Shown: one piece after another, positions 1 through 39,492 of the stretch | Layout of the letters: the number at the start of each line of letters is the position of its first letter | Position numbering within the stretch: the stretch's first letter is position 1 | Source: Spirogloea muscicola | Taxonomy: Eukaryota > Streptophyta > Zygnematophyceae > Spirogloeales > Spirogloeaceae | Assembly: GCA_009602725.1 (NCBI GenBank) | Contig: WELB01000007.1 | Span: 1,409,425 to 1,448,916, forward strand | Reading direction: 5' to 3' | Length of the DNA: 39,492 bases | Notes under the pieces: generated by a model | The model's input: the letters and a program-made list of their open reading frames with translations, nothing else | What the model was told of the DNA's origin: nothing | Databases searched by the model: none | Made by a program: the position numbers and the translations under genes

Positions 1-3752
<3,752 letters not shown>

Positions 3753-3800
3753 TCTACGGGGAAAATTTACACGTCTTCCTAGCTGCTCAATGTCGAAGCC

Positions 3801-3805
3801 TGTAA
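3801..3805 (+). terminator. Possible TGTAA polyadenylation signal of NOP56
   Basis: TGTAA is the usual poly(A) signal in chlorophyte algae. This copy lies 48 bases after the NOP56 stop codon, at the short end of the usual distance. A 5-base motif is weak evidence without transcript ends. Confidence 0.3.
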
Positions 3806-4482
3806 ATGTGCAGTGGCCCTGCAGACGGTTCTGCATGCATCAGCTTCAATGTATGATAATTGGTGCTCTGCTCCCGGATGTGAAACTACAAGGCTACCTA
3901 GGTAGCTGCTACAAGAAGTTCCAGAAGCTGCAAGCTTGGTGCTTGCTCAGGCAGCAGTGCACAGTGAGGGAAGGGGACTTTTGCTCCTGTCGAGGCAGAA
4001 GCCATGCAGGCACCTTGAGGAGAATGTGGCTTGTGTATGGGTTGTACAGGTCGCTGCGAGAAAGGAAGACTGCTCGGCTGGGAGATGGATCAGCCTTTTT
4101 CGTCAATTCTTTTCGGGCTGGCTGTTCACAGCTCTTCCCCCTTTGGGAAGCCACTTTGTTTCTTCCTATTTGAGGCGTCACAGTGCACCGAAGTGCTGGT
4201 GCAGAGGACTCATGGAGAAGACGGGGTTATAGCTTGGAAGCTTGAGCAGTCCGTGGTCAGCCCGAAAAGCCCCGCTTGGCAGGAGGGCGCCTGGGACGTT
4301 TGAGCCGCAGAGGAGCTGGAGAGCAGAGTGGCAGGAGGAGAGGCAGCTTGCAAGCGCCCAGGCAGCAGCTCCAGCTTCTGTCGGACAGCAGAAGGCCGGC
4401 AGCCTCAGATTCCAAACACCACACCCACTGCTTCCTCGGCTACACTCCCGTCTCCCATGGTGTGGCAACCAGTGGCACGGCG

Positions 4483-4510
4483 TGGGTCACATGCCGTGCC
4501 ATGTGACCCA
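4483..4510. repeat. Perfect 11-bp inverted repeat with 6-nt spacer
   Basis: TGGGTCACATG at 4483-4493 and its exact reverse complement CATGTGACCCA at 4500-4510 flank CCGTGC. Each arm contains the E-box-like core CACATG/CATGTG. A second pair, GGCACGG at 4475-4481 and CCGTGCC at 4494-4500, overlaps it and could form a competing hairpin. It lies about 180 bp upstream of the first candidate start of the monooxygenase gene. Confidence 0.75.
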
Positions 4511-4570
4511 TGCATGGAATGGAAGTTACTGAGCAGGCACCCCCTTAGTGGTGGTCTCTACATTTCCCGG

Positions 4571-4620
4571 CGCCTTAAGACCTCGTTAGACTTCCTTAGA
4601 CCTCGTTAGACCTCGTTCAA
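4571..4620 (+). repeat. 10-bp tandem repeat, about five units (CCTCGTTAGA)
   Basis: Units of ten bases follow one another: two exact copies of CCTCGTTAGA (4581-4590, 4601-4610) and diverged copies before, between and after them. It sits 65-115 bp upstream of the first ATG considered for the monooxygenase gene, so it is in the promoter or 5' leader. Confidence 0.8.
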
Positions 4621-4685
4621 TCCTTTGTGGGCTGGCTCATCACAGCCCTCGCCGGCTTTGAAAGAGCTGCGTCTTTCGTCTCATC

Positions 4686-7359
4686 ATGCTTTCTCAGTGG
4701 GAGAGACGGCGCGCGGTGCGCATGAAATTGAAAGGGAGGCCAATTCTAGTGGGAGAAAGACTATGCCCAGTGGGCCGCAGGTCTGGTGCGGAAACGAAGT
4801 GGCTGGCACCCCGGTGCGCGGCCGCGAACTGCGACTCCCAGCTCCAGCGTCCATGGCTGCGCTTCCCGGCGGCGGCGGCGGCCGCGCAGGCGTCGCGGCG
4901 GCGGCGTCGCGCGGCTCCGCCGAGCTGCCGAGGTGCCGAGCCCGAGCGCGTCGCGGGCCTCCAGTGCCGCTCGAAGGCCCAGGAGGCCCACGGCCGCACC
5001 GCCGAGCGCCACGCTTGCGGAGCCTGGGCCACGCTAGCGAGAGTCCTGCCTCGCGGCAAAGCCGTGACTGCTGGCTCCCGCCGTCTCGTCGGCGCGCAGG
5101 CTCAGCGCCCAGCAGGGCAGCGCCCGACTGCCGGCCTCGCCAGGTGCTGGTAGGCTGCCGGGGCGGTGGTCGCGGGCGCTCCTTGAGGCCTCGCGGAGTG
5201 CCCCGCGCAGCGGCTTGGATGCCGCGCGGCGGCGGCGGCGGCGGCCACCGCCCTGCAGGCCTGCAAAGTCGGCAACTGTGCGGGCTTCTGCTACTACTCC
5301 CGAGGTTGTCATCGTCGGGGCGGGTATCGCGGGCCTCTCGACAGCCCTTGCGCTTACCAGGTCAGGTTCCCTACTGTCGACCGCGGCGCCCTGTGTGCTG
5401 TCATTACTATTCGCTGCGGCAGTACGATGGCAGACCTGCAAGCCGTCCCGCTTCCACCCTTGCGATTCTAAATGAAGTTGTTGTGTCAGGTATAGCACTC
5501 AGGCTTTGAATTTCAGAATGTTGGGGCTTCAGTCGGCCCGGTTGACGCTGCCCGCCACGCCGTGGAGCCAGGGTTGGCATCCCCGTCGTAGTGCTGGAGA
5601 GGTCACCCGGCCTGCGGGAGGGCGGCGCAGCACTGAGCCTGTGGGGCAATGCCTGGCGCGCTCTGGACGTCCTGGGTGTAGGCGAGAGCCTCAGAAGCCA
5701 ATACACAACCCTGACCAGGTGAGGGGCCGGCCAAAGGAAGGCGGACGACCAGCCAATGCATGGGCCGCATGGTGCACTTGGGAGCCAGCCTTGCCGCTGC
5801 AGTTTTCGGAGGGCAACATCACAACTTATACTCTCCTGCCCCTCAGGGTGGAGCTGTGTAGCAGCGACGGACGTCTTCTGAAGGCATTTGATTTTGACGA
5901 ATGCGATGGCGGGTGTGTGCTCATTGCATTCTTTCCCAGCAGCTCAGCTGCATATGGCTGCGGGGTTTGAGGAGCATGCAGCTGGCCCTTGTAACAAGTG
6001 GAGCTGGTCGTGCTGGACATCAGACCTCAAGTTGGCGCATTGTCTTGCACTTGGCACTGCAGACCCCACGAGGTCAGAGGAGTGCATCGCGTGGCTCTCT
6101 TGCAGGCTTTGGCCAAGGACCTTCCGCCCAATACCATCCGCTTCAGCTCCCGTGTGAGCAGCATTGCCGGGTCTTCACGAGACCACATCTACAAGGTCGG
6201 GCTAGAGGACGGCGATGAGTACAACGCAAAGGTCAACCTAGATTCTACCTCTGCAAGGCTGTGCTGCTTGCCTTGAGGCGGATTGCAACATGCCGACATG
6301 CAAGTTCAGGAGCTGGCATCATTTGGACTCCTTTCTGGTCCTACATAGTGGTACGTGCTTGCTAACTCATTAGATTGTCCTACAGGTCATCGTTGGATGC
6401 GATGGGGCGAACTCAAAAGTGGCCAAGTATTTGGGACTGAAGGATGTGAATTATGCTGGTTACTCTGCCTATCGGGGGGTCAGCCACATGCCAGCAGGTC
6501 ACTCCCTGGGGGGCACGGTATGCCAGGCGCTCGGCCGAGGAGTCCGTGCCGGCATGTATCCTCTGAATGCGCAGGAAGTCTACTGGTTCACCGTCTTTAA
6601 TTCGCCTCCAGGTGAGGAGAGTGACATGCTCAGTGCTGAGGTCGATTCATTTTCAAGGGAAATAAGACCGCTTACCGTTGCGTGCTGGGTGCCACTGGTA
6701 AGAGTGTGTGACTTGTTGTTGCAGGTGTGCGAGATGAGACTCCTGCAGCGATGAAAAAGGCGGCACTGGACTCAATTTTGGGGTGGCCCCAGGAGATTGT
6801 AGACCCCATGCGCTGCACATCTGAGGAGCAGATTACTCGGTCCGACATCACGGATCGGTGGCTTCTGCCGCTGCCGGGCGTGAGGTGGGGCAGGGGGGGG
6901 GTTACGCTTGCAGGGGATGCCGCACACCCCATGACACCAAACCTCGGCCAAGGCGCCTGCACTGCCCTTGAGGATTCAGTTGTCTTGGCCAGAGAGCTGG
7001 CTGACACCCCCTTGGTTAGCGTGCCGGTGAAGCAAGCCGCTGGTGAGATGGTGGCTGCTGGTGGCTCGTCAAATTCGTGGGAGACAGGTGGTCAAGCCAG
7101 TGGCAAGAGGCAGCCAACGGAAGCTCATGATAAGGTGCATGTGGGTACGACAGTCGATGCGGCCCTGGAGAGGTATGAAAAGGAACGGCTAAGACGGTGC
7201 GCCATCCTGACAGTGAGGGCCAATGCCATGGGCCGCCTCTTACAGCTGCCATACGCGCCGGTTTGCCACATACGAGACAATCTGGCCATTCCCCGAGTGT
7301 TCCCCGTTGCCCACTTTCTGGACCACACCTTGTACGACTGCGGCGAGTTGCCCGCCTGA
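4686..7359 (+). CDS. FAD-dependent monooxygenase, CTF2A/zeaxanthin-epoxidase-like, probably plastid-targeted
   Basis: Class A flavoprotein monooxygenase of the plant CTF2A/CTF2B group; substrate unknown. Well-supported exons are 5259-5360, 5572-5718, 5847-5912, 6063-6231, 6386-6611 and 6725-7359, all phase-compatible. Family motifs appear in order: the FAD-binding Rossmann stretch VVIVGAGIAGLSTALAL, the glycine-rich GGAALSLWGNAW, the DG motif VIVGCDGANSKVAKYLG, and the GD motif LAGDAAHPMTPNLGQGACTALED. The segment just before the Rossmann fold (SATVRASA) resembles a chloroplast transit cleavage region. The core frame has no ATG, since a stop lies at 5065-5067. A phase-compatible 5' exon with ATG at 4686 or 4722, ending at 5143 (CAG|GTGCTG), would supply the start, but this is inference. 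About 45 glycine/serine-rich residues (7014-7150) interrupt the usual spacing between the GD motif and the C-terminal helix. Function is certain at family level only; the N-terminus is uncertain. Confidence 0.85.
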
Positions 7360-34461: not shown

Positions 34462-35983
34462 ATGGCCGCCCCGGGCGGCCGTGGCGGGCCGTCCATCTTC
34501 GCGCCGGCGCTGGACGCCATCCCCCGCTCGCGCTCCGCCGACGGCCAGCTCCTCACCGACCCCTTCCTCAAGCTCTGCCGCCTCGTCCTGCCAGTCATCG
34601 GTCCGTCCGGCGCCCCGTCCAGGGCCCCTCCAGGGCCCCTCCGTGTCTCCGTGTCTCAGCGGCCAAGTCCGGCCGTGTACTACTCGAACGGTCCGAATTG
34701 CGTGCATCCGGCGAGGAAAGCTCCAGCTCTCCACCTTACCACATCGGCGTGTGTTGCCTTGTGCCCAGACAAATTCGGCTCCGCGCTTGTCATGGTCAAG
34801 GGCGACATTGGCGGGAACATCGAGGTTTGTGCTCCCGCGACCACTAATTCGATTCAAAGTGTCACTCAAGTAGCAGATTATCTTACAGCTGATTCTCAAG
34901 AAGCTACATTGGCTCCATTGGCCCTTAGGCTGGGTGCGGCACCTTGCTGTTGCCTGAGTCGGCAATCTTATGTAGTGCAGCGGCTCGAGAAGGCCTATGC
35001 GTCGAAGCCGCCGTCGTACGAGCTGCTCTACGACATCGTCAAGGCAGAGGTCGCCCAAGGCACAGCCCGCGGATCATCCAGCAATAGCAATGGATTGCTC
35101 TGGTTGACTAGGTGAAGCTGCTTGATGCTGGAGCTTGGCTAGCTTGCGCCTCTTCCTCAGGACCAGAGTCCTACGTTTATGCAGACATGCTGGGCCATGT
35201 TTCGAGGTGGCCTGCCTCAGAAGACTCTCTTGATCTTGAGAGGCCTGTTGCTCAGTCAGACGTCCCAGAGGCTTGACAATTAGATTCCTTGGACCAGAGC
35301 GATGGACTTCTTGGTTGCTCTTCTACGTGAGCTGAGAGCACACCAAGAGTGGTCAATGGCACAAGTAGCACGGGAAGCGTATGCAGAGAGACTTAAGCAG
35401 TATCACGGATGGATAGCACAAGCAGCATTTACTGTAAGCCACAACGAGACTACCAAGTGCACTACCTGTTGAGCTGCCAGCTGTTGTACGTCCTTTCAAG
35501 CCGAAGCTTATGCAACCAAGAACTGCTTGCTTTTCTTGTACTCTGTTGACCTGAACCTGTGTTCTCACTTTGCCGGGCAGTATCTTCATAACTTGTCCAG
35601 CTCCATTGATGTAGGTGGCATTGCAACTGATACCAAGCAGGGAGACATTCATGGACAAACTTGGAGGTGGACCCCTTGAAAAGGACATGGACGAATTTGT
35701 CAAAGACTTTTCGCCTTTGCTGCTTGACAACCATGAATTCCTGGTACGAGGCAAATTGGTGGATCGCAAGCACTGTGCTAATTCACCAGGTCACTAGCTT
35801 TGACTAGTACACTAAACAGCAGAATATATTCGAAGTTGCAAGGCGCTGCGATGCTTAGCAGCTGAGCATCCTGGATGCTCACCTTTAAGTGGTGCTCTAG
35901 CTCTCCAACTTAGGGTGGTGCTGATGAGGACACTCCCGCCTTTGCAGAGAAGCGTGGACTTGGATGACATGAAAGCAGCCTGA
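34462..35983 (+). CDS. Glycolipid transfer protein (GLTP fold)
   Basis: Cytosolic lipid carrier that moves glycosphingolipids or ceramide-type lipids between membranes. Six phase-compatible exons: 34462-34600, 34769-34824, 34981-35111, 35298-35433, 35615-35743 and 35948-35983. They give 208 residues, the normal length for the family. The start ATG has a good context (GCCATGG) and is followed by MAAPGGRGG. Headgroup-recognition residues are present: D59 and N63 in VKGDIGGNIE, R66 where human GLTP has K55, W106 in GLLWLTRAM, and H145 in QYHGWIAQAAF. Exon 5 carries LIPSRETFMDKLGG, and the last exon is only 36 bases (SVDLDDMKAA). Ceramide-1-phosphate transfer (CPTP/ACD11 type) is the alternative; the D-N-W-H set fits either, so the cargo is not settled. 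Confidence 0.95.
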
Positions 35984-37078
35984 TTGTCCCCCTTGCATTA
36001 CTTGAACACTCCAGAAATCAGTACTTGACTGCCATGAGACAAGGAGCACTTCTTCACACATGTCGATAGGTGCTGTCACTTTTGGGTTTGTACAGACACA
36101 GCAGCACTTTCATTGGAATTAGGAAGCCTAGGTCGCTCCACTCACATTTGTCAAGTAACATGAAAAGAGGGTCTTGGTGAGTTGTGGTATGATGACCCTG
36201 CAACTTGATGCTGCTATGCTAGGAACTTCTTGCTTGCCCTCAGTGGTCTCTGGATGTGCGACTTGGGCACAAGAGACAGATGCACGAGAACCTCACCTTT
36301 GTTAAATATGGAAATATGGTGAATCAGTGGGTCGGTAGAATCACCCAATATGCCTATTCTGCTAGGCCGATGAGAGTCTCCCTAGATAAGGGAGGCCCCG
36401 GCAGATTGCACAATTGGCCCGAACAATCTAGTGGCTCTGTGTGCGGCGAGGCGGCGCTGTGTGCGCGGCGGCTGTGTGTGCGGTGAGGCGACGCTGTGTG
36501 TGCGGCGGCTCTGTGTGAGGCCAGGTGGTACTGTGTGTGCAACAGCTGTGTGTGTGCGGCCAGGTGAAGCTGAGTAATCGGCGGCTGTGTGTAATCAGGC
36601 ACCTCTTTTGTGTTACTGTAATCTCTTTGTGATCATGTCTGCGTCTGCGTCCGCATTTGCGTCAAGACGAGAGCAGGCAGAGCAAAAGTGTTTTCAACCT
36701 TAGGGCAAAATGATACTGTGCACTAGACTGTCTTGCCAGAGTTGATGTCCATGTTGTTCGCAGCTTGCATACTTGGACACCCTTATACAGCTCTCTGCAC
36801 ACCACCATTTTCTTCCCTTACACTACATACTTGAGCACCTCATGACCTGATCTCAGGAACCCCTTGAAGCCTGCAAAATCATTTGCTGGAACATAATGGG
36901 CAGCCTCAGAAGCTAGTCTCACTTGAGACACGCCTCATGTCACAGATGGGATTACTGAGTACCTCCAAAAATCTCTAGGTGTATTTCAAGCTAGGGTAGG
37001 GTAAGGTAATAAGCAGGGGACAAGAAAGTGCATGCTGTCCTAGTGCCACCAATCTGAATCAGCTAATGTCAAGCAATT
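35984..37078. other. Intergenic between the convergent GLTP and TMEM65-like genes
   Basis: About 1.1 kb with no supported gene. It contains a GTGTGTGCGG minisatellite at 36430-36595 and possible TGTAA poly(A) motifs for each strand (36617 plus; about 36820 minus). The open frames at 36256-36602 are read through the repeat. Confidence 0.6.
36430..36595 (+). repeat. Degenerate minisatellite of CTGTGTGTGCGGCGG units
   Basis: About eight to nine irregular units of 16-25 bases share GCTGTGTGTGCGGC and a GGCCAGGTG or GGCGAGGCG spacer. The array decays toward its right end (GTGTGTAATCAGG). Alternating purine-pyrimidine GT/GC stretches favour Z-DNA. Confidence 0.8.
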
Positions 37079-39492
37079 CTATTGCTGCCTCTGGCGACTG
37101 AAAAATATCCGTCGGAGGCCCATAGCTACTGAGACTGTGGCGAGGAGATACAGACCCCCCAAGCGTTCGCTACTAGTCATGACCCGTTGCCTTGGTTGTG
37201 AGAAGGCTTCGCTGACTGATGCAAATACAGTGCTAGTTGGGCTGCTACGATGCCGATCTAGTTGACCATGGATTGCCCTGTCACCTTCCCGTGTACACAC
37301 TGGCCCAGCCTTTTCTCCAATGGTATCTAAAGCTGATGCAATAGTGACAACAGGTTCACCAGAGCCTCCAGATTTGATGAATAGGATTGGAACTAGTCCG
37401 AGGAGGCAGCCTATAGTGACTCCAATAGATGCACCAGTTGTTTCTGCCCACCATGCCTCCTTCATTTGCATCTGAATGCATCCCCTCCCAAAGCACAGCT
37501 GTATCAGCTCAATCAATATATCCAACACTGGCTCCCCTCTAACACATGTAGGGTCTGTAAGTGACAGCTGCTGAGTTTGACTGTCACCGAGTTGCACCAG
37601 TCATTTAGATTGGGAATGGCCAGAGAATGGGATGTGACAGTAGATTGTATAGTCTGTGATTTACCTGCACAGGTGACACCCTTGACGAAGGCATGAAATT
37701 GCTGGAGACGCCTTCAATGTACTCTCGGAATGCAGTGCCAACAAGGTCAGCTAACGCGTTCCCCAGCCCTGCAGACTGACGAGCGCGGACACAACGAGTA
37801 GTCAATTTGGACAGTGACTGTGAGGCACTGGCGTAAGCAGGCCCCAAAGCAAGACTTGTACTCTTGCTGAGCTTTCTGTTGGTTCCTCACTGTAAGAGAC
37901 GGTTAATTGTAATCTCTGGGGACCAAGGACCCTAGTATATCATCCTCACCAGCAAAGTAGGCAGGTTCAAAGTAGCACCAATGGAGTTCTGGATGGCGTC
38001 CCCAGCAATGATCATGATGGCATTGTCTGCAGGCCCAGGAGAATGCCACATGCATGCCATTTGGGTGATCCTCAGGCAATCAAAGCGTCAGTCTTGAAAG
38101 CCACTGCACCATCTGTGCAGATCCCAATCTGGAAGCACACGAACACGCTAGAGCGGACCAATATCCAGAGTTGCACATATCACAGGCTGATACAGCAGAA
38201 GTGCCAGTCCATGCACCTCCACAGAGCCTGTACTCAGGAGTAAACAATACATAGGCAGCTGTCTGCGTGACTGCTGGGGTAAACAGATTGTAAGTAAGGC
38301 AGTGGAGCTCGGACTGACCTGTGAATCCAAAGCCGATCATCCCTGAGTAAGGATTACAACAGAAGGACATGTGAGTCACTACAAATGTGCAGACAATCAA
38401 AGAGGCTGTGCTGGAGTTCCAAGCCACCAAATCTCTTCCAGCATTTGGCAGGTGCTCCGGGGCTGGTATGAGTAAAACAATACGTGCAGTAATTACATGT
38501 AGTACAAGGAGGAGCCAGTTGCTTGGTCATATTCGCTGTCAAGGTGCAGCTGTTAATCCATACAGAAGATCCAGCTGTTCATCCAAACAGCTGTTGCAAG
38601 ACCTGACTTGCATGAGTGACTGACCTATGGCTGCCCTCAACGTGAGGTGTAACAGCTGCTTCTCTGTGAGCGGCTTCTCCGAGGCGCCATACTTGATGGC
38701 CTGAGCCTCCACATAGCTGGAGAACTCCCTCTGGTCCAGCACCCCATCCTTGTTGGTATCGGCCTCCATGAAATGCAAGTCAGCATTGTCAGAAGCTGCA
38801 CAGACAAAGAGGATCGTGAGGTGCCGTATGAGCCTGGGCTGCCAGGCACGTGTCCTACACTGAGCGAGCTTGTTCTCAAGTAGTCACCTCAGAAGCATCT
38901 TAATCATGTGGGTCTCTCCGAGCATACAAGCCTAGCACAGGGATGGTGCTCCAAGGAGGCATAAGACGGGCTTCCATTTGCCTCACAGGTGAACCAAAAG
39001 TCGGACAGCCTCGAGACTGGTAGCATACCGCTTGAGTACAGTGCTGCTAGGATCGCTGCTCTGCCTTGCTGGTCAATTCTGGAGATGAGGCCTGTAGCGA
39101 CATCCGCGGCAACGATGGCATCGCTCTGCTGAGCACAGGGGGAACGGGGAATCTGTTCTGTCACGAGATTCCCCCCCAGTGGGAGCAAGCGCACATATAA
39201 AGCGAGCCCAGACCGCAAGCTTCAGCAACCGTTGGAAGAATTGTGTAGCTAACAAGGCGGGACAGAATGGGCTGCCGCTTCGAGCCATGGTAAGAGGGGC
39301 CATGGTAGGAGTGGCCAGCAGCGGCGGCTGCGAAGGTGGGTTGGTGGACGGCTGCCCAGCATTGGTGCGCAGCTCAGTGGGAGCTCACCGCCAGAGTCTG
39401 GACCAGCCGGTCGACCAGCTGCTGGTTGTCCAGCGCCGCGACCCCGCCGCCAGGGCCGCCGCCGCGGCCCAGCGCCGCAGCGTCGCCGCCCG
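37079..39492 (-). CDS. TMEM65-family membrane protein with an EF-hand (5' partial)
   Basis: Seven phase-compatible exons: to 39389 from the window edge, 39125-39029, 38795-38625, 38342-38319 (24-base micro-exon), 38026-37950, 37775-37665 and 37471-37079, at least 324 residues. The C-terminal half is the TMEM65 domain: MIGFGFTDNAIMIIAGDAIQ, LSAGLGNALADLVGTAF and TTGASIGVTIGCLLGLVPIL. Mammalian TMEM65 is a mitochondrial inner-membrane protein linked to sodium-calcium exchange. Just before the first membrane segment is a canonical 12-residue EF-hand loop, DTNKDGVLDQRE (D-x-N-x-D-x-V-x-D-x-x-E), flanked by helices DNADLHFMEA and FSSYVEAQAIKYG. An N-terminal glycine-rich stretch leads to DNQQLVDRLVQTLA. 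A basic C-terminal tail includes a further hydrophobic segment (LYLLATVSVAMGL). The start lies beyond the window. Organelle targeting is inferred from the family. Confidence 0.88.

Follow-up and report, generated by a model that had tools for sequence, protein, structure and literature searches.

TMEM65 was first regarded as a protein of the inner mitochondrial membrane, with three putative helices, its N-terminus in the matrix and its C-terminus in the intermembrane space, and its co-precipitation fits a homodimer (PMC13254257, Nat Commun 2026). According to the same paper, Na+-dependent Ca2+ efflux is lost in TMEM65 knockouts, and a reconstituted exchange is cited there, so that the connection with mitochondrial Ca2+ is now stronger than the "linked" used in a preliminary description of the locus presented here. 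TMEM65-mediated mitochondrial Na+/Ca2+ exchange has been reported only recently, and the literature still disagrees on whether TMEM65 acts as the exchanger itself or as a partner of NCLX: others have proposed that it serves NCLX, as partner or regulator, and is not the exchanger, which counts against the reading preferred below.

Many non-metazoan TMEM65 orthologs carry an EF-hand (OrthoDB v11, as described in PMC13254257). The suggestion that such fusions may lie unannotated in databases is thus contradicted by this source: the pairing is already in print, and the algal gene described here is a good example of it, not a discovery. No paper on an EF-hand regulating TMEM65 transport appeared among the matches listed, most subscription papers lying outside the search. 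Does matrix Ca2+ regulate TMEM65, and how? A natural TMEM65 bearing a hand offers a direct route to ask this, with versus without the hand.

An EF-hand ahead of a TMEM65 core in one gene

In the window (the whole stretch of 39,492 nucleotides of Spirogloea muscicola DNA that was analysed), one multi-exon gene runs on the minus strand, from about 39490 down to 37079 (Table 1). Its six introns are all of the GT-AG type, and its exons join in phase to encode first the EF-hand and then a near full-length TMEM65 domain (PF10507). The EF-hand exon (38795-38625) and the junction at 38342 lie on the minus strand exactly where they had been placed, and the earlier claim of an EF-hand preceding the TMEM65 core in one phase-consistent gene is well supported by three conserved copies. 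The extent initially given, 37665-38795, corresponds to the middle of the gene: the junctions that it named stand, while the last TMEM65 exon (to the stop at 37079) and two exons upstream of the EF-hand exon (E1 and E2) had been missed. At its 5' end the gene extends past the window, and the acceptor of E2 has a three-base ambiguity (AG CAG). The readable protein comprises 305 amino acids (DNQQ to stop); its EF loop occupies residues 60-71, and residue 109 is the first of the FGF in its TMEM65 core. Among the other open frames of the window, six of the seven scanned gave matches, including neurobeachin-type, lipid-desaturase, TPR, FAD-binding and glycolipid-transfer proteins.

Table 1. Exons and EF-hand loop of the algal TMEM65 gene (positions in the window)
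Feature	Position	Strand	Sequence and observations
E1, 3' part only	39389-39490	(-)	GGDAAALG...DNQQLVDRLVQTLA; open frame; GTGAG donor in 3/3 copies (39430-39389 compared)
E2, before the EF-hand	39029-39128	(-)	QSDAIVAADVATGLISRIDQQGRAAILAALYSS(A); 93-97% identity between copies, indel-free
E3, EF-hand exon	38625-38795	(-)	dN/dS 0-0.13 between copies
EF-hand loop, canonical, 12 residues	38725-38760	(-)	DTNKDGVLDQRE; sole PROSITE-type match, six frames
E4, 24 bases, start of TM1	38319-38342	(-)	GMIGFGFT; both splice sites in 3/3 copies
E5, remainder of TM1 and next loop	37950-38026	(-)	DNAIMIIAGDAIQNSIGATLNLPTLL; exon join and genome matches
E6, TM2 region	37665-37775	(-)	SAGLGNALADLVGTAFREYIEGVSSNFMPSSRVSPVQ; copy comparison and genome matches
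E7, TM3 and C-terminal tail, stop TAG	37079-37471	(-)	TM3 = GASIGVTIGCLLGLVPILFI

The joined exons match PF10507 with 98 bits (cut-off 25) over profile positions 2-108 of 109, and E7 alone already gives 27.3 bits; the joined protein also matches PIG-F with 14.1 bits, below the cut-off of that family. A simple hydropathy scan (cut-off 1.2) places hydrophobic segments at residues 102-120, 136-154 and 189-207, as expected for a three-helix core, the second being borderline at 1.20-1.24. A search of NCBIfam gave no match, and no solved relative of TMEM65 was found by sequence, the 12 matches at E <=10 (best 0.28) being mostly EF-hand proteins. The C-terminal tail of 96 residues (window 37369-37079) is under weaker selection and evolves faster (dN/dS 0.32-0.38), and contains a fourth hydrophobic segment, possibly membrane-embedded, at residues 281-299.

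A canonical but solitary EF-hand loop

A canonical EF loop has 12 residues, with ligands at positions 1, 3, 5, 9 and 12, a glycine at 6 and a hydrophobic residue at 8. The perfect loop announced in the preliminary description, DTNKDGVLDQRE, has all of these features, in all three copies of the gene, and DTNKDGVLDQRE-F is the only match of the window, in six frames, to the PROSITE EF-hand pattern. In 60 random windows generated with an order-1 Markov model, this pattern occurred on average 0.017 times per window, which rules out a loop arising by chance. A DNA pattern for the EF loop matched loci of the own genome only (8 of 19, and 0 of the other 11).

Judged by its predicted loop, the hand is thus canonical, yet single. 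EF-hands mostly work in pairs, and a lone recognisable hand counts against a sensing role of the kind preferred here. No second EF loop was found in the readable 305 amino acids, by Pfam or by the loop pattern; the absent N-terminus could hold one. A degenerate second hand was considered in E2, where D23 lies 37 residues before D60, the usual spacing between paired hands, and was rejected: positions 3, 6, 8 and 12 of the putative loop do not have the residues expected there. Two further results weigh on the same side. The EF-hand models of Pfam score only 12-17.5 bits on the joined protein (queried as 303 amino acids, without the Met-Gln of the final 305-residue model), all below their curated cut-offs (EF-hand_1, 17.5 versus 25.4 bits; EF-hand_5, 17.2 versus 25.9). 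The structure predicted for E3 only, computed with no alignment, is poor (mean pLDDT 61.6), with the exit helix present and the entering helix absent. The hand lies about 30-36 residues ahead of the first membrane helix, and a short linker of about eight residues, GASEKPLT, joins its exit helix to the stretch preceding TM1.

Three copies held under purifying selection

A search of the genome (153 Mb, 471 contigs) returned TMEM65 at three loci, on contigs C7 (the window), C11 and C26, along with two extra matches taken as noise (E 0.45 and 0.86). The EF exon was found at the same three loci, beside TMEM65 in 3/3, and nowhere else at E <=1; the match counts for TMEM65 and for the EF exon are lower bounds. 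Frame, the six intron positions, splice sites and EF-loop ligands are kept in all three copies. In a three-way alignment (where the limits of E6 and E7 are 1-6 bases off the final ones), E2 to E7 are 89-100% identical and no pair shows an indel, in contrast with introns, which are 78-94% identical with gaps in every one. This contrast does not extend to E1, which is 80-88% identical with a single 3-base gap, or to intron 1, at 89-94%.

These observations bear on a reading in which the EF-hand exon and the TMEM65 exons belong to separate genes, joined in appearance only. The gene model is drawn from genomic sequence, and E4, with its 24 bases, is short, both of which would suit such a reading. 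It is nevertheless extremely improbable, and we reject it on the ground that 3/3 copies preserve frame and splice sites: phase and GT-AG borders are maintained at all six introns, and E2 to E7 are free of indels. The report of an EF-hand/TMEM65 pairing in many non-metazoan orthologs (PMC13254257) likewise speaks against two genes.

Across the whole readable protein, dN/dS between the three copies is 0.13-0.18 (Nei-Gojobori), and falls to 0.05-0.07 in the TMEM65 core by the same method. The EF exon shows 0-2 nonsynonymous changes per 132 sites versus 4-5 synonymous changes per 36 (dN 0-0.015, dS 0.12-0.15), and the sole difference within the loop is an Arg to Lys change at position 11 in the C11 copy, which is not a ligand. 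Because E2 to E7 are indel-free, dN/dS of the EF exon is low and the ligands are unchanged, the hand seems to be held in frame with the core by selection.

Downstream of the gene the three loci are also alike, with blastn pieces of 80-90% identity spanning window 34554-37000. TMEM65 and its downstream sequence are collinear at C7, C11 and C26, with a dS of 0.19-0.26 in the gene, which points to triplication of the segment, or to ancient or hybrid polyploidy.

Bacterial and phage relatives lack the hand

In prokaryotes and phages, the TMEM65 core either stands alone or is embedded in longer phage proteins. A tblastn search of phage records returned a single one, Vibrio phage 2.275.O (MG592671.1, L009:2510-2794), whose protein AUS02913.1 is a minimal TMEM65 core of 94 amino acids, already annotated with PF10507. 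Alignment-based scans gave two bacterial loci, here with the phage protein added to the alignment, and five viral loci, and one more came from scanning with the phage protein itself; the bacterial scan with the algal core alone, the scan of plasmids for TMEM65 and the search for a eukaryote-like TM1 by an exact DNA pattern returned no match. No viral relative of the whole algal protein was found with two peptide patterns, a weak test covering the N-terminal part only. TMEM65 looks rare in bacteria, with one genome of 369 sampled in one class and one of 298 sampled in one phylum, in each case the centre genome itself.

Fifteen columns are invariant between the algal core and seven of the nine relatives (the partial L010 and L017 excluded), and the algal core therefore looks intact. 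They include D113, N114, N144 and D148 (algal numbering), which we regard, from this conservation, as candidate ion-contact residues. A structure predicted for the bacterial core (L012 with five relatives) has three long helices (mean pLDDT 71.7, pTM 0.46), and a Foldseek search with it against PDB gave 18 matches at E <=10, the best at 3.4. Of five proteins scanned against PHROGs, one matched weakly (E 0.0054). In one IMG/VR contig (L013) the TMEM65 domain lies inside a frame of 1597 amino acids (3-4796) that also matches ART-PolyVal, and three other viral contigs (L014, L015 and L016) carry it in proteins of 282-338 amino acids, which places a cation-exchanger-like membrane core in phages.

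None of the nine open frames for TMEM65 from bacteria and phages, of which L010 and L017 are partial, has an EF loop by the PROSITE pattern or a looser one, while 3/3 of the algal copies used as a positive control were detected, and Pfam detected no EF-hand in the six proteins scanned of these nine. This absence (9/9 by pattern, 6/9 by Pfam) would suit the main rival explanation, in which constitutive binding of Ca2+ (or Mg2+) would make the hand a part that serves folding or holds the dimer together, sensing nothing. The hand standing alone, no partner being recognised in what can be read of the protein, points the same way, as does animal TMEM65, which is not known to have a hand, an absence implied by PMC13254257. 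The kept ligands and the purifying selection suit a sensor equally well, however, and do not discriminate between the two; we consider a purely structural hand possible and clearly less likely than a regulatory one.

A putative Ca2+-responsive exporter

Taken together, the locus is on balance best explained, with modest confidence, as an apparently intact nuclear gene for a TMEM65-family Ca2+ exchanger of an organelle inner membrane, whose export would be raised by Ca2+ through a matrix EF-hand. The interpretation first put forward is partly supported: tying the algal protein to mitochondrial Ca2+ on the basis of its family appears reasonable, and its idea of self-regulation is a fair hypothesis. 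Inner mitochondrial membrane, matrix N-terminus, homodimer and Na+/Ca2+ exchange are taken from the animal literature; we infer, for the alga, location, Ca2+ binding, ion coupling, direction and size of regulation, and pairing of hands across the dimer.

With the topology borrowed from the animal protein, the EF-hand would face the matrix and bind Ca2+ as matrix Ca2+ rises. The signal could then be passed through the GASEKPLT linker and the pre-TM1 stretch to TM1, which bears the conserved Asp-Asn pair and might shift, so that Ca2+ export would go up when matrix Ca2+ is high; the single hand could pair with its twin in a homodimer. In a broader and rather unlikely version, non-animal TMEM65 would be a self-gated exporter of matrix Ca2+, EF-hands pairing across the homodimer to open the exchanger, and animals would have lost the hand and come to rely on other proteins for regulation.

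The organelle itself could be another one. The protein might sit in the plastid envelope or thylakoid and regulate stromal Ca2+: the genome is that of a photosynthetic organism, the chlorophyll-binding family giving 68 exon-wise matches (among 14 controls only a cyanobacterium matches), and the targeting peptide lies outside the readable sequence. Animal TMEM65 is described as mitochondrial (PMC13254257), and no plastid pointer was noticed in the readable sequence on inspection; a plastid location appears quite improbable. The preferred reading is a mitochondrial, possibly plastid, TMEM65-type Ca2+ exchanger with a putative regulatory hand shortly before TM1. Since the Na_Ca_ex family has 24 exon-wise matches in the genome, other cation exchangers are present, which also counts against this explanation. 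For the MCU family the search gave no match in the genome, and none in the controls either, and an exact pattern of its signature was not found in the genome; neither search lends support to mitochondrial Ca2+ entry in this alga, a further point against the explanation.

Comparison with known systems

The algal core has FGFxDN and AGxGNxxxD in common with its bacterial and phage counterparts (L011, L012, AUS02913.1, L013-L016), within the invariant columns; these differ in being without an EF-loop and in consisting of 94-111 amino acids alone or forming part of longer phage proteins. Animal TMEM65 has the same PF10507 domain, near full length, and three hydrophobic core segments, a likeness drawn through the Pfam profile. 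The C-terminal tail is probably longer in the algal protein than in animal TMEM65. LETM1, a Ca2+ handling protein of the inner mitochondrial membrane with a single EF-hand, resembles the algal protein in this description. Animal TMEM65, unlike the algal protein, is not known to have an EF-hand, an absence that PMC13254257 implies. The non-metazoan EF-hand TMEM65 orthologs, as described in PMC13254257, likewise unite an EF-hand and TMEM65 in one protein.
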